Position numbers and translations under genes: made by a program. The notes beneath the pieces are model-generated. The model saw only the letters and a list, made by a program, of their open reading frames with translations, was not told where the DNA came from and made no database searches. Shown here piece after piece: positions 3,374 through 19,589 of a stretch of 44,138 nt of DNA (the first letter of the stretch is position 1; the number at the start of each line of letters is the position of its first letter). Source of the DNA: an uncultured archaeon (GTDB lineage: Archaea > Thermoproteota > Bathyarchaeia > Bathyarchaeales > DTEX01); the NCBI GenBank assembly GCA_938091805.1, contig CALKGV010000037.1:1-44138 (forward strand). The letters run 5' to 3'.

Positions 3374-4624
3374 TTAGCATTCGCCTTCATATTCACTTAA
3401 ATCTTCAAACAAATCCTCAGCTAAGCTAGGTAAGTCTGGGGATGCTAACTTAATCAAGTCCTCCCTTCCCTCAGAATAGCCTGACGCTATCAGTATATCG
3501 CCAATTTCAATCCTCGTATCGAGTTTAGGCCTAATACATCGATCTTTTCTTCGGATAGCAAGTATTCTCATTCCTGTTTCTTCCGGCAGATGGATTTCCC
3601 TCAAAGTCTTATTCACGAGTGGAGATTTATCACTTACCCTAGCATACGCTATGGTCTCCTCCGCATCCATTATTGTCATCTTTAAAACTGGGTGAGGCTC
3701 AATCCCCCTAAGGATCACCTCCGCTATTTCGGCAGCTGCATCTGCAATTTTTTCAGCCGCAACCCCTAATCTTATTAATCCAAGAAGACCTTTAGCCTCT
3801 TCTTTACTAAATTCGCTTAGTAAAACAAGCAGCTCAAAATTTGTATGCAACTTATCAACATACTCTTCGAGGCTGTTTACTTCCTCAGCTAGATCTTTAC
3901 TATTTAACAGAAGCGCAGAGTAGGCCAAACTTATCATTAGCTCAGATGTGTCCTTAAGCTCAATAAACTGCTTTGCCATATCTCTGAAACGCTCCGTTTC
4001 ATTTTTTAGGGTTTTTAGACGTTCTTCTACTCTGAAAGGCCCTGCTTCAGCTTTCTCTCTAAACTCTTTTATACCTTCTTGAGCACCACGCACAATGAAA
4101 ATATCATTACTCTTAACCTGCTCTTCATTTCCCGGATTTATTATCCAGTCCCTATTCCTACGAATGGCTATAACGTCTATTCCCATGCTAGTTAAATCTA
4201 AATCGTTTATTTGTTTGCCGACTATAGGCGAGTTTTCGGAGACTTTAATTCTTGCTAAATGCTCCTCAACTCTCTCAAATATTTCTGCTACGATTGGGTG
4301 CACGCCAATGTCTTGGAGAACTATGGCGGCTATGTCACCAGCTGCATCTGAAATTTTATCAGCTGCTGAGGCAACCTTGGCAACGCCCGATAGGGCTTTA
4401 GCTTCATCAGCATCTCTTGCAGCCATCATTATTTCCATGTCTAAGAGATAGGTGAGCGTGTCCACGCGATCCTCAAGATCTATAACGTCCTCCGCGAGAT
4501 CCCTATCGTTAAATAATGCGGCTGAATAGGCTAAATCGATCATTAACTCAGAAAGATTCTTCATTTCTAAAAGCAATTCTCTGACAGATATGGGCTTATA
4601 CTTTACCTTTTCTTTTTTACGCAT
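3374..4624 (-). CDS. Duplicated PhoU-like/TrkA-C (RCK_C) domain protein
   Basis: Two tandem homologous halves, each a helical segment (SELMI.LAYSA.L...DLAE.V..LE..VD) followed by a TrkA-C-like segment (IAIRR...GDI.I..G). Confidence 0.75.
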   Translation of the reverse strand: MRKKEKVKYKPISVRELLLEMKNLSELMIDLAYSAALFNDRDLAEDVIDLEDRVDTLTYLLDMEIMMAARDADEAKALSGVAKVASAADKISDAAGDIAAIVLQDIGVHPIVAEIFERVEEHLARIKVSENSPIVGKQINDLDLTSMGIDVIAIRRNRDWIINPGNEEQVKSNDIFIVRGAQEGIKEFREKAEAGPFRVEERLKTLKNETERFRDMAKQFIELKDTSELMISLAYSALLLNSKDLAEEVNSLEEYVDKLHTNFELLVLLSEFSKEEAKGLLGLIRLGVAAEKIADAAAEIAEVILRGIEPHPVLKMTIMDAEETIAYARVSDKSPLVNKTLREIHLPEETGMRILAIRRKDRCIRPKLDTRIEIGDILIASGYSEGREDLIKLASPDLPSLAEDLFEDLSEYEGEC

Positions 4625-4713
4625 TTTATCCGGTTCGCTCCCTCCAAGAATATTTTCGCCTAAGTTATTTTAAAACTTAACTCTTTTCTATAATAATTAT
4701 GCTGAAGCGCGGG

Positions 4714-4992
4714 GATGTGGCAACTTAAGGTTAGGGCTTTGACTAGTCAAATGGGTTTTAAGGTCCTTAGCCTAGTAATACCTGAGAAATTCGTTTTCCA
4801 GCAGCCCTAAAATCCTCTATCATCGCAGACATGGCAACTTAAGGTTTCTATAGTGGGGGATGGATGGTTTTCAGTCTATTGAGAGAACGGGTGTTTTCAG
4901 ATGTTTTAGGCATCGTTCAGTCCTTTATCGGTGAAATGAGAAGCTTAAAACCCGTTGACTAGTCAAAAGACAGACCTTAAGTTGCCACGTCT
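4714..4992. mobile_element. MITE-like non-autonomous element with ~49-bp terminal inverted repeats
   Basis: Left 4714-4762 and right 4944-4992 are imperfect inverted repeats containing GTGGCAACTTAAGG and TTGACTAGTCAA. Flanking direct repeat AAGCGC(G/A)GG at 4705-4713 and 4993-5001. No ORF inside. Confidence 0.75.
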
Positions 4993-5039
4993 AAGCGCAG
5001 GATAAATATCTTGGAAATTCTGAAGAAGAGGCGAACAAT

Positions 5040-6263
5040 CTAATATAATAGGATGAACAGAATTGCTATACATGTGGTTAGCATTGCATCTGTCACGGAA
5101 GTTTCTATCGGTATTACAAAATTATCTGGATCTAAACCGTTCTTGAAGGTTAGAATCGCTACTGAATAGGCTAATAAAAATATTATTGGAGAAAGTAAGA
5201 TAAAGGATATTACCGCTATAAAAAAGGATTTTAGGTTTCTATCAATTAGATACGCTATTGACCCGTAAATCGCATAATAAATAAGCCCCGAACACCATAT
5301 TTGAGCTAAGTCGTGAAACTGCATCCTAACATCACTTATTTTGGCTTTAACTAAACCTAAGTGAAGCCTTGTTGTAGTAATTGAACCGAAGGAAGCTGCC
5401 ACATCGCCAAGCGAATCTATGAGAGCTGGATAAATTACGAGAATCTCTTGCGCCTCCTCAAGTTGTTTTTCGATTTGAAGTAAGAAAAACCCAGATATCA
5501 TCGCTATTAACGTGGCTAACACGGTGGCCAAGAAAGATTCCCTTAAAGTTTTCCAATACTCGCTTTCATTTCTAAATCTGTAAGTGACGATGCAGAATAA
5601 AAAAATTGCCATTAAACCTATCATGTGAATTATAATCGCGCCTGCAGCGTTAAGCCAAAAAGCGATCATTAACGAAATCACATAAGATATTGTTGACAGT
5701 ATATCTGCTATTGATGAGCTGAATGGATATAGGATTATGTCCGGGTCTAAACCTCTCTTATAAGCAATGAACGCTACAATCGCTGTTGCAGGGTTAATTA
5801 ACCCTAGAGAAATTGCTTGAACCGCCAAACTTGTAAAAAGTATTAAATTAAGTTCCTCTAACGGGGCATTAGTGATCAGAAGAGCTATGAAACTTGTAAG
5901 CAGACCTATAAGCAAAGATAGGGCTAATTGCGAGCTTAAAATAACATGATAATACCTTGTATTTTTTGTTAGACTTGGTTTTATCAGCCCTACATGAAGT
6001 CCAGTGCTGAGCCTCCCGGCTAGAATTCCATTTATAGCCCCCTTGCTTGTTAGAACGGTGGGATATATCGCTATGGACCAGCTTCTGAACCTTATGAGGT
6101 TAGTGTAGAACATGGCGAATATTATTCCAGCAACAAGACCGAGAGGCGTATTAGAGAGTGAAAACATTGATTCCCAAAAAATTTTAAACCTTCTTCTAGC
6201 TTTTCCCCTCACGTTCGATGTTTCTTTGCTTATTGCTCCGCCATCAGCCTCCATTGCCCTCAC
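5040..6263 (-). CDS. MgtE/SLC41-like divalent cation transporter with two membrane repeats
   Basis: 407 aa polytopic protein. Two related segments, IYPTVLTSKGAINGILAGRLSTGLHVGL and IYPALIDSLGDVAASFGSITTTRLHLGL, typical of MgtE/SLC41 domains. Confidence 0.8.
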   Translation of the reverse strand: MRAMEADGGAISKETSNVRGKARRRFKIFWESMFSLSNTPLGLVAGIIFAMFYTNLIRFRSWSIAIYPTVLTSKGAINGILAGRLSTGLHVGLIKPSLTKNTRYYHVILSSQLALSLLIGLLTSFIALLITNAPLEELNLILFTSLAVQAISLGLINPATAIVAFIAYKRGLDPDIILYPFSSSIADILSTISYVISLMIAFWLNAAGAIIIHMIGLMAIFLFCIVTYRFRNESEYWKTLRESFLATVLATLIAMISGFFLLQIEKQLEEAQEILVIYPALIDSLGDVAASFGSITTTRLHLGLVKAKISDVRMQFHDLAQIWCSGLIYYAIYGSIAYLIDRNLKSFFIAVISFILLSPIIFLLAYSVAILTFKNGLDPDNFVIPIETSVTDAMLTTCIAILFILLY

Positions 6264-8155: not shown

Positions 8156-8807
8156 GATATTCTTTTACAACTTGTAAGAATGGCTTGCCTTTCCTTATTT
8201 CTTCAGATTCTCTTTTTTCTAGATCATCGATCCTCTTAGCCCTCTCCAGGACCTCTGAAACTTTATCCCTTGGTATCACAACTATTCCATCCTCATCTCC
8301 GACAATTATGTCGCCGGGATTTATAATTACACCACCATACTTTATTGGGACATTAGTGGCTTTAACTTCTGTTCTTCCAACTGATGTATTAGGTGACAGA
8401 AACCGGTAAAAGACCTGAAAACCCATCTCTTTAATCTCCCTAAAATCTCTAATCGCACCACATATAACGGCGCCCTCTAACCCTCTAACCTTAGATGCAA
8501 GGGCCATCAGCCCGCCGAAAAGAGCTATATCGCATGCTTCACTACCATCTAGAGCCCTAACTAAAACGGAGCCTTTTTCAGCATTATCTATCGTCTCCAT
8601 AGCCTCAAATGGAACAACTCTTCTACTGGAATAACAATCCTGAATTGTAACTGCCGGACCGGCGATTCTGATGCCCTCTAAAACGTGGTTAAAGTGCATG
8701 TTTAACGTGCCGTCTAAACCAATCTGGTTTAAAGCGTCGGATAATGATGCGGTGGGAATTTTTTTAAGTTCACTAATATATTCTTCAACGAGCATATATG
8801 TCACCAA
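8145..8807 (-). CDS. RraA-like / HMG aldolase family protein
   Basis: Contains GAVICGAIRDFREIKEMGFQVFYRFLSPNTSVGR...GVIINPGDIIVGDEDGIVVIPR, typical of the RraA/dimethylmenaquinone methyltransferase-like family. Confidence 0.88.
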   Translation of the reverse strand: MVTYMLVEEYISELKKIPTASLSDALNQIGLDGTLNMHFNHVLEGIRIAGPAVTIQDCYSSRRVVPFEAMETIDNAEKGSVLVRALDGSEACDIALFGGLMALASKVRGLEGAVICGAIRDFREIKEMGFQVFYRFLSPNTSVGRTEVKATNVPIKYGGVIINPGDIIVGDEDGIVVIPRDKVSEVLERAKRIDDLEKRESEEIRKGKPFLQVVKEYLRV

Positions 8808-10381: not shown

Positions 10382-11782
10382 TCACCTCCTCCCCCCAACA
10401 ACTATTCCGTCAATTCTAAAATGCGGCGCCCCAGCATCCACATACATGCTTTGACCGGACTTACCGCACATCCCAGGCATATCCATCCTGAAATCCTTGC
10501 CAACTGCCTTCACATTTTTAAGGGCCTCAAGCGTTAAGCCACTTATGGCCACATCTCTTAAATGCTCAGTTAACTCGCCCTTTTCTATTAACCATGCCTC
10601 CTCAACCTTACATGTAAACTGTCCCTTTTGAGATTCAACGTAACCATATTGGGAACCACTCAAATACACGCCGTAATCTATATCTTCAAGTATCTCTTCA
10701 AGGGTTAAATCTCCGGGCGCGAGATAGGTGTTAGACATACGTACTATGGGCGGATGATGATGCGACTGAGCTCTGGCGCTCCCCTCCGGTTTGCCCCCGA
10801 TCTTTGCGACTGATTCTAGCGAATGCAAAAATCCTACAAGAACGCCGTTCTTTACAAGTACATGAGGGCTCGCCTTTGTCCCTTCATGGTCATATACGAA
10901 GTGTCCAAAGCACTGTCTTGTAGGATCATCAATTATTGTAACAAGATCGCTTGCTATCTTTTGCCATAGCTTATTAGCTATTATTGATTGCCCGCTGAAG
11001 ACTACGTCGCCTTCACTGTTATGCCCAAAGGCTTCATGAATAAATAGGCCGCCGACCTTGGGATCAACAACTATAGGGAACGTGCCTCTAGGCGGCGGAT
11101 GAGCGCTGAGGAGGCTGACAGCCCTCTTTGCGGCCTTTAAAGAGAATTTTTCCACCTCAATATTTTCAATAATCTCATAGCCAGCAACGCTTCCAATGCC
11201 CTCAAAACCATCCTGCATGTTATCGCCTTCTTTAGCTATGACTCTGCAGAATACACGTGTTCTTGGCGTAATCTCCTCAATCAACGTTCCAAATGAGTTG
11301 CAGACGATGACTCTTGTTACGACATCTCCGTAATAAACAAAAGTATCCTTAATTTTATCGCCGAGGTTTCTGGCGGCTCCCTCTATCTCAAGCATTCTCT
11401 TAACCTTCTCCTCTGGGCTCACATCCTCAAGCTTAATCTTTACATCATGTATAATCGTATCAACTGAGGGTTTAATCTCAACTATCTTCGCGTCCTCACC
11501 CATCTGAGCAGTTATCGACTTTGCGCCGCCGATGGCGTCCCGCAAGGTTTTTTCAACATTCTGTCTCGTAGGTATATTTGTTGATGCAAAACCCCATCGG
11601 CCATTAACTATGACCCTTATTCCAATACCCCTTAAAATTCCCGAGGAGAGAGCTCTCGCAATACCATTTTCAATGCTTATACTGTTGCTCCTTTCTTCAA
11701 AGAATCTTGCCTCGCAGAAACTTGCACCCTCATTAAGCGCCTTTTGGACGATTGATTCTAAAAGATCTTTCAAAATTAGCAC
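10382..11782 (-). CDS. tldD: TldD family metalloprotease
   Basis: HEAFGHNSEGD Zn-binding motif and C-terminal GMCGKSGQSMYVDAGAPHFRIDGIVVGG. Confidence 0.93.
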   Translation of the reverse strand: MLILKDLLESIVQKALNEGASFCEARFFEERSNSISIENGIARALSSGILRGIGIRVIVNGRWGFASTNIPTRQNVEKTLRDAIGGAKSITAQMGEDAKIVEIKPSVDTIIHDVKIKLEDVSPEEKVKRMLEIEGAARNLGDKIKDTFVYYGDVVTRVIVCNSFGTLIEEITPRTRVFCRVIAKEGDNMQDGFEGIGSVAGYEIIENIEVEKFSLKAAKRAVSLLSAHPPPRGTFPIVVDPKVGGLFIHEAFGHNSEGDVVFSGQSIIANKLWQKIASDLVTIIDDPTRQCFGHFVYDHEGTKASPHVLVKNGVLVGFLHSLESVAKIGGKPEGSARAQSHHHPPIVRMSNTYLAPGDLTLEEILEDIDYGVYLSGSQYGYVESQKGQFTCKVEEAWLIEKGELTEHLRDVAISGLTLEALKNVKAVGKDFRMDMPGMCGKSGQSMYVDAGAPHFRIDGIVVGGRR

Positions 11783-17936: not shown

Positions 17937-19589
17937 GTGATATTGATGGCTGCTAGTGCATCTGCAGGTGGGATTCCTGTATTAATATTGAAAGAAGGCT
18001 CAACAAGATCCAGAGGCAGGGATGCTCAGCACAATAATATCATGGCTGCTAGAATTATCGCTGAGGCGGTCAGATCCTCGCTTGGTCCCAAAGGTATGGA
18101 CAAGATGCTTGTTGACAGCCTTGGTGATGTGACGATTACGAATGATGGGAAGACAATCTTAGATGAGATGGAGGTTGAGCATCCTGCTGCTAAGATGATG
18201 GTTGAGGTTGCTAAGGCGCAAGATAAGGAGGTTGGTGATGGAACCACAAGCGTCGTTGTTGTTGCTGGTGAACTGCTGAATAAGGCTGAGGAGCTACTTA
18301 ACAAGAACGTTCATCCAACGGTCATAATTGAGGGGTACAGAAGAGCGGCTGAAAAAGCTCTTGAAACCTTAGAAAATATTGCAATAAAAGTTGATCCGGC
18401 CGATAAGGAGTTTCTTGAGAAGGTTGCTATGACATCCATGGCAAGTAAAATCGTCTCAGAAAACCGTGAGCATCTTGCTGAAATATCCGTTAACGCAATA
18501 CTTCAAGTTGCCCAGAAAGTAGGCGACCAATATAAGGCTGATTTGGACGATATTCTAGTACAGAAGAAACACGGCGAATCTGTAAGCGACACAAGGCTAA
18601 TTAACGGCTTAGTCATAGACAAGGAAGTTGTTCATCCCGGAATGCCCAAACGTGTTGAAAAGGCTAAAATTGCGCTTTTAGACTGCCCGCTGGAAATCGA
18701 AAAAACAGAGTTTGACGCTAAGATAAATATTGAAAGTCCAGAGCAGATGGAGGCTTTTCTACGCGAAGAAGAAAGCATGCTTCGTAGCATGGTTGATAAA
18801 ATTGCCGCAACAGGCGCAAACGTTGTTATCTGTCAGAAAGGTATTGATGACATGGCGCAGCATTTCTTGGCCAGAAGGGGAATTCTGGCTGTCAGGCGCG
18901 CTAAGAAGTCCGATATGGAGAAGCTTGCTAAAGCCACTGGCGGAAGAGTTGTGACGAATCTCGAAGACCTATCTGAGAAGGATCTTGGCTATGCTGATCT
19001 TGTTGAGGAGCGAAAGATAGGCGACGATAAAATGGTTTTCATTGAGGGCTGCAGGAATCCGCACGCAGTAGCTATATTGATCCGTGGAGGAGCTGAGCGT
19101 ATTGTTGATGAAGCTGAAAGATCTATTCACGATGCGCTTTGCGTTGTCAGAGATGTTGTCCAGGAGCCTAAGATTCTGGCTGGCGGAGGGGCGCCAGAAG
19201 TAGAAGTTGCCAATGTTCTTAGGGAATATGCCCAATCATTACCGGGTAAGGAGCAACTGGCTGTTCAAAGCTTCGCAGAGGCTATAGAAGCCATTCCAAC
19301 GGCTTTAGCTGAGAACGCTGGTCTGGATCCGATTGATATACTGTCTGAGCTTAGGGCAAAGCATGAAAAGGGTGAGATCTGGGCTGGTGTTGATGTTTTC
19401 TCTGGTAAAGTTAAGGATATGCGTGAACTGGATGTCTATGAACCGTTGGCTGTTAAGAAGCAAATAATTAAGTCAGCTACAGAGGCCGCAACCATGATAC
19501 TAAAAATAGACGATGTTATTGCGGCAGGCAAGATGAAGGCTCCTAAGACGCCTAAGGGTCCAGAGGGCTACGGTGGGGAGTTCGAGTAA
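17937..19589 (+). CDS. thsA: Thermosome subunit (group II chaperonin)
   Basis: [55 protein letters not shown]; the start may be ATG at 17946. Confidence 0.97.

Follow-up and report, generated by a model that had tools for sequence, protein, structure and literature searches.

A putative composite IS6-type MITE inserted next to transporter-related genes in a Bathyarchaeota-like archaeon

The insertion and its site

The window analysed in this study is a 44,138-nt stretch of DNA from an uncultured Bathyarchaeota-like archaeon, and it carries a 280-bp non-coding insertion (positions 4713–4992) between two transporter-related genes. The question raised by this locus is what kind of sequence the insertion is, and whether it belongs to the gene pair or arrived there by transposition. 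Comparisons were made with the window's own genome (G000), a Bathyarchaeota MAG of the same genus (G009) and a further same-genus genome (G008). The features of the site are as follows.

3374–4624, minus strand: TrkA_C/PhoU-domain gene, downstream of the insertion (PF02080, 2e-31; PF01895, 2e-19)
4705–4712, unstranded: left target-site duplication AAGCGCGG, the 8 bp adjoining the TIR on its left, matching the right copy at 7 of 8 bases
4713–4992, unstranded: probable composite IS6-type MITE of 280 bp, bounded by TIRs, with an 8-bp duplication at its flanks, missing from G008
4713–4730, plus strand: left TIR GGATGTGGCAACTTAAGG, placed by the TIR consensus GGACGTGGCAACTTAAGG, which was derived from ends in two genomes
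4975–4992, minus strand: right TIR AGACGTGGCAACTTAAGG, placed by comparison with other copies
4993–5000, unstranded: right target-site duplication AAGCGCAG, directly right of the TIR
5040–6263, minus strand: gene for an MgtE-type divalent cation transporter, upstream of the insertion and on the same strand as the TrkA_C gene (PF01769, 3e-27)

The borders of the insertion, as well as the TIR, were set by comparison with other copies of the family. An initial annotation, made from the sequence of the window alone, had described a 279-bp non-coding element at 4714–4992 with a 9-bp direct repeat at its flanks; the element itself was confirmed, with its left border moved to 4713 and its length to 280 bp, and the duplication was also confirmed but is 8 bp long rather than 9 bp, since the initial G of the TIR had been counted as a ninth base on the left. 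The imperfect inverted ends of ~49 bp that had been described are present, being 84% alike over 49 bp (BLAST, E 4e-7), and a 52-nt inverted pair (4707–4758 and 4947–4998) shows 77% complementarity. No transposase gene was found within 4713–4992, where no ORF reaches 80 aa.

The MgtE gene adjoins the TrkA_C gene in six other genomes of the genus. In G008, the two genes (89% and 94% identical for MgtE and TrkA_C, respectively) lie next to each other with the element absent, and the target octamer occurs there once (AAACGCGG, in the plus-strand sense). The uninterrupted site of G008 reads CCGCGTTT, compared with CTGCGCTT/CCGCGCTT in the window when its flanks are joined computationally, and the intergenic bases near the target are otherwise moderately diverged, with one indel. 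In the remaining five same-genus genomes, a short gap separates the two genes, likewise without the element. The search for empty sites, which had been proposed as a check, was therefore successful, and the reading as a MITE-like insertion with a target duplication is borne out by the empty site together with further copies in the genome and their 8-bp duplications.

The minus strand of the element folds much better than shuffled sequences (z of -6.5 for 280 nt and -5.4 for 166 nt), and this strong folding, as well as the position between co-directional genes, would be in keeping with a structured RNA, an attenuator or an untranslated region that is conserved as part of the MgtE-TrkA_C pair. 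Such a role is highly improbable, as the fold is explained by the inverted ends, the same sequence is found at unrelated loci in two genomes, and it is missing from G008 and five other same-genus genomes that have the gene pair. The element sequence also matched no Rfam family at gathering thresholds. The absence from orthologous sites and the lack of an Rfam match speak against the structured RNA, and the two circumstances named at the outset as speaking against a mobile element, a sequence unique in the genome or an RNA or untranslated region conserved without empty sites, do not apply here. The element would place a strong hairpin in a transcript running between the co-directional MgtE and TrkA_C genes, with a possible effect on expression. 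Promoter-like consensus matches in the element were set aside, as the scan that gave them uses a bacterial sigma-70 pattern.

Copies of the family in two genomes

BLASTN of the element against its own genome and relatives, as had been recommended, showed that the sequence is not unique, with copies on contig C92 of the same genome and on contigs C41 and C23 of G009. The plasmid and phage collections gave no matches at blastn sensitivity. With up to one mismatch allowed, the TIR core GTGGCAACTTAAGG was found 53 times in the window's own genome and 46 times in G009, with 0 occurrences of the reversed control in both, and each of the other 19 family genomes searched has 0–3. Around 20 complete elements with inverted TIRs, ranging from 133 to 718 bp, are present in the window's own genome. 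Exact 8-bp duplications flank six of these (C11 twice, C52, C86, C92 and C110) and four elements in G009, and duplications matching at 7 of 8 bases flank three further elements (C37, C59 and C68). The duplication around the 280-bp element, at 7/8, is not exact. When the flanks of 68 TIR-like ends in the window's own genome were compared, 10 pairs had exactly equal 8-bp flanks, while no exact pair was obtained from the same ends with flanks shifted by 1–4 bases or reversed. About half of the complete elements are without matching flanks.

Matching flanks were also seen across different elements of the same genome (C3:6577/C65:4360, C46:23084/C80:20232, C71:27010/C80:19664, C64:1610/C65:3992 and C87:15974/C99:408), four of these 8-bp pairs being exact and C64/C65 having one mismatch. 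Such a pattern might come from recombination between copies, with their flanks swapped, or from wrong joins made at repeats during assembly. On contig C56 (locus L068), a left-type end at 8183 and a right-type end at 19239 lie 11 kb apart in the same direction with an equal 8-bp flank, CCGCAGAG, the pattern to be expected if one of the two breakpoints of an inversion had fallen within an element.

A subgroup of non-coding elements of 160–166 bp shares the TIRs of the family and differs in its interior (ATTTTTGAGCTTAAAAT on the left, CCGTATTATGAATTTAAA on the right). It was found at C11:19676, C59:26338 and C68:1361 in the window's own genome and at C98:28664 and C42:14696 in G009, with 8-bp flanks that are mostly equal.

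Relationship to IS6-type insertion sequences

The longest copy in the window's own genome (C91:10835–11552, 718 bp) is bounded by the 18-bp TIR of the family and encodes a transposase of 218 residues, interrupted by a single in-frame TAG. The product matches PF13610 (DDE_Tnp_IS240) above the cut-off (E 8e-12), and matches NF033587 (IS6) with an E of 5e-26 and, for this decayed copy, a score of 91.6 bits, which is below the curated cut-off of 125. Transposases of the IS6 type in Candidatus Methanoperedenaceae GB37 and in Archaeoglobi MAGs share ~57% protein identity with it over 126 residues. Since the longest copy encodes a decayed DDE transposase of the IS6/IS240 type, the family is best described as an IS6-type MITE family, and the element in the window is very probably (roughly 93%) a non-autonomous MITE of an archaeal IS6-type insertion sequence. 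The term IS6-type is preferred here to formal membership of IS6, both because of the NF033587 score and because it has been questioned whether the archaeal members belong to IS6/IS26, from which they possibly form a separate family (PMC6807381).

All transposase copies seen in the window's own genome are broken. In G009, stop-free fragments at contig ends jointly span residues 1–215, and in these two genomes no assembled copy combines an intact transposase with a TIR at either end. A stop-free homologue of 214 codons matching PF13610 adjoins the same right TIR in another uncultured archaeon (locus L173), and contains ESAFSSLKQR, which fits the motif E--F---K-R of archaeal IS6-type transposases (PMC6807381). 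The transposase of intact copies of the insertion sequence would act in trans on any pair of TIRs that face inward, and in this manner could mobilize elements such as that in the window.

The initial annotation had tentatively linked the element, by way of its TIRs and duplication, to the IS1 or IS1595 families. Both families make duplications of 8–9 bp, and the TIR resembles the end of IS1, with CAACTTA common to both. Within these TIRs, however, the one transposase observed is PF13610 of the IS6/IS240 type, and the IS1 transposase domain PF03400 is absent from the window's own genome at E <= 0.01, whereas the control genomes of E. coli and M. acetivorans do match. These two observations contradict the IS1 assignment, and IS1595 is disfavored by the IS6-type transposase within the TIRs, leaving a MITE of either family a very slim prospect.

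IS6-family elements are known to generate 8-bp repeats, and two MITEs of this family have been recorded, of 227 and 336 bp (PMC7986276). The IS6-family MITEs in ISfinder, MITEBth2 and MITEHarch3 (named in PMC6807381), are likewise non-coding, with IS6-type TIRs and a need for transposase in trans. Compared by description, the family here differs from these two in its lineage, its size of 133–280 bp, its TIR, its third internal TIR and its subterminal palindrome. The archaeal IS6-type insertion sequences are also similar, as among the members listed in Table 5 of PMC6807381, such as ISC735, ISH14 and ISH17, transposases are ~211–231 aa long, and in the recorded cases covered there the duplication is mostly 8 bp, the TIRs often start with GG and the same transposase motif is present. 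The parent here differs in being ~720 bp with its own TIR, and in falling below the curated cut-off of NF033587. The loci inspected in GB37 (L180) and Archaeoglobi (L179) have no copy of the TIR core within 2 mismatches, unlike the family described here. The element is of a known kind, an IS6-type MITE, and what is unusual is the 12-base palindrome that it carries. With few IS6 MITEs catalogued, an IS6-type MITE family is documented here in Bathyarchaeota-like genomes through an empty site and target duplications.

A 166-bp unit within the 280-bp element

The interior of the element is divided by a third copy of the TIR.

4713–4826, unstranded: left fragment, a 49-bp end like the right end inverted, followed by an interior of ~64 bp
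4827–4844, plus strand: third (internal) TIR AGACATGGCAACTTAAGG, the element boundary in C92 and both G009 copies and the left end of the 166-bp unit
4827–4992, minus strand: 166-bp MITE unit, to which the complete G009 copies are 97% (C41) and 96% (C23) identical

The third TIR copy had been reported at 4827–4845 as closer to the right end than to the left, and it does match the right end at 18 of 19 bases and the left at only 16 of 19. Nesting, or an alternative unit of 166 bp, had also been suggested, which agrees with two complete copies of 166/167 bp in G009 that begin at the third TIR. One of these has an exact target-site duplication of 8 bp, TGTCAAAG, and the flanks of the other match at 6 of 8 bases. 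The copy on C92 in the window's own genome is a 133-bp version of this unit, shortened by two deletions in its interior, and has the exact duplication CACTTTTC. Together, the G009 copies and that on C92 indicate that the basic unit has its genuine left end at the third TIR, and that the element in the window is apparently a 166-bp unit joined to a divergent end of 114 bp.

The 280-bp form occurs once. The interior of the left fragment (~4763–4826) had no other match by BLAST in the window's own genome, 20 family genomes and the fetched loci, and this unique stretch of 64 bp is what might be expected if the 280-bp form were a pair of separate insertions side by side, or a chimera of the assembly, instead of one composite; the exchanged flanks at other elements of the assembly could mean misassembly at repeats. 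Two insertions would each require their own duplication, and the outer borders duplicate one 8-bp target, present once in G008. Neighbouring insertions or a chimera are thus unlikely, and a single composite is preferred. The inner 166-bp unit has no duplication of its own at this site (ATCATCGC / AAGCGCAG). Such a composite could have arisen when one MITE inserted into another and the sequence between the two similar right ends was then deleted, or through a comparable fusion. Of the possible histories, we infer that nested insertion with deletion is the simplest. As both ends bear a nearly identical TIR, the composite may have moved as one unit, and the 280-bp form may itself be mobile. How MITEs diversify is illustrated by such a composite, which keeps a further end in its interior.

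A palindrome shared with other elements

Both ends of the element contain the 12-base palindrome TTGACTAGTCAA.

4739–4750, unstranded: subterminal palindrome, at positions 27–38 from the left tip
4955–4966, unstranded: subterminal palindrome, at positions 27–38 from the right tip; TTGAATAGTCAA in G009

Exact copies number 8 in the window's own genome and 7 in G009 (15 in total), where ~0.1 would be expected per genome, and the remaining 19 genomes have one site. Four of the eight sites in the window's own genome lie in three IS6-type elements (the two ends in the window, C92 and C11), three in elements ending GAACTC...TTTA (C18, C67 and one end at C87), and one in an element on C106 with inverted ends CGCTC...CTTTT; in G009, all seven sites are in GAACTC-type ends. 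Consequently, 11 of the 15 sites are in two other transposon-like families, flanking a small gene for a putative ribbon-helix-helix/zinc-finger protein. The distance of the palindrome from the tip is 27 or 28 bp in the IS6-type elements, 27 bp in the GAACTC type and ~38 bp in C106.

The small gene, which is enclosed by the GAACTC and C106 elements and, of the full copies seen, is preserved intact at C106 alone, was found solely in the window's own genome and G009 among 165 genomes of the order. It occurs in six places, each adjoining the palindrome or a one-base variant. This co-occurrence of palindrome and gene makes a shared protein-binding site possible, in which the palindrome, acquired ~27 bp inside the tips of unrelated MITEs, would be bound by a small mobile DNA-binding protein borne by the other elements, one protein controlling or assisting the transposition, or nearby transcription, of several families. 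We regard this as a rather doubtful proposal, and exchange of sequence between element ends would be a simpler alternative. If the palindrome is truly bound by protein, it would mean that one small element-borne regulator acts on several unrelated transposon families.

The C106 element (~1558–1919 within locus L266, C106:1000–4200) is ~362 bp long, and its flanks both read ATAAAATA, as an 8-bp repeat. An intact ORF of 78 aa lies between its two palindromes. The encoded protein has no significant match in Pfam, NCBIfam or PDB, and from its sequence is putatively a ribbon-helix-helix domain with a C2H2 finger. Members of the GAACTC family are ~320–334 bp long and have GAACTCRTCTCYAAACTMTTTA as their ends; the palindrome sits 27 bp in from the tip, and the small gene that they enclose is decayed. 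They were found in the window's own genome at C18:5844–6176 (L263), C67:11687–12007 (L264) and C108 near 10470–10716 (L279), and in G009 at C90:5893–6226 (L271), with further copies at contig ends (L267–L270, L272 and L273). Ends like those of the GAACTC family were also seen beside the start of an IS5-like transposase in C71 and C5.
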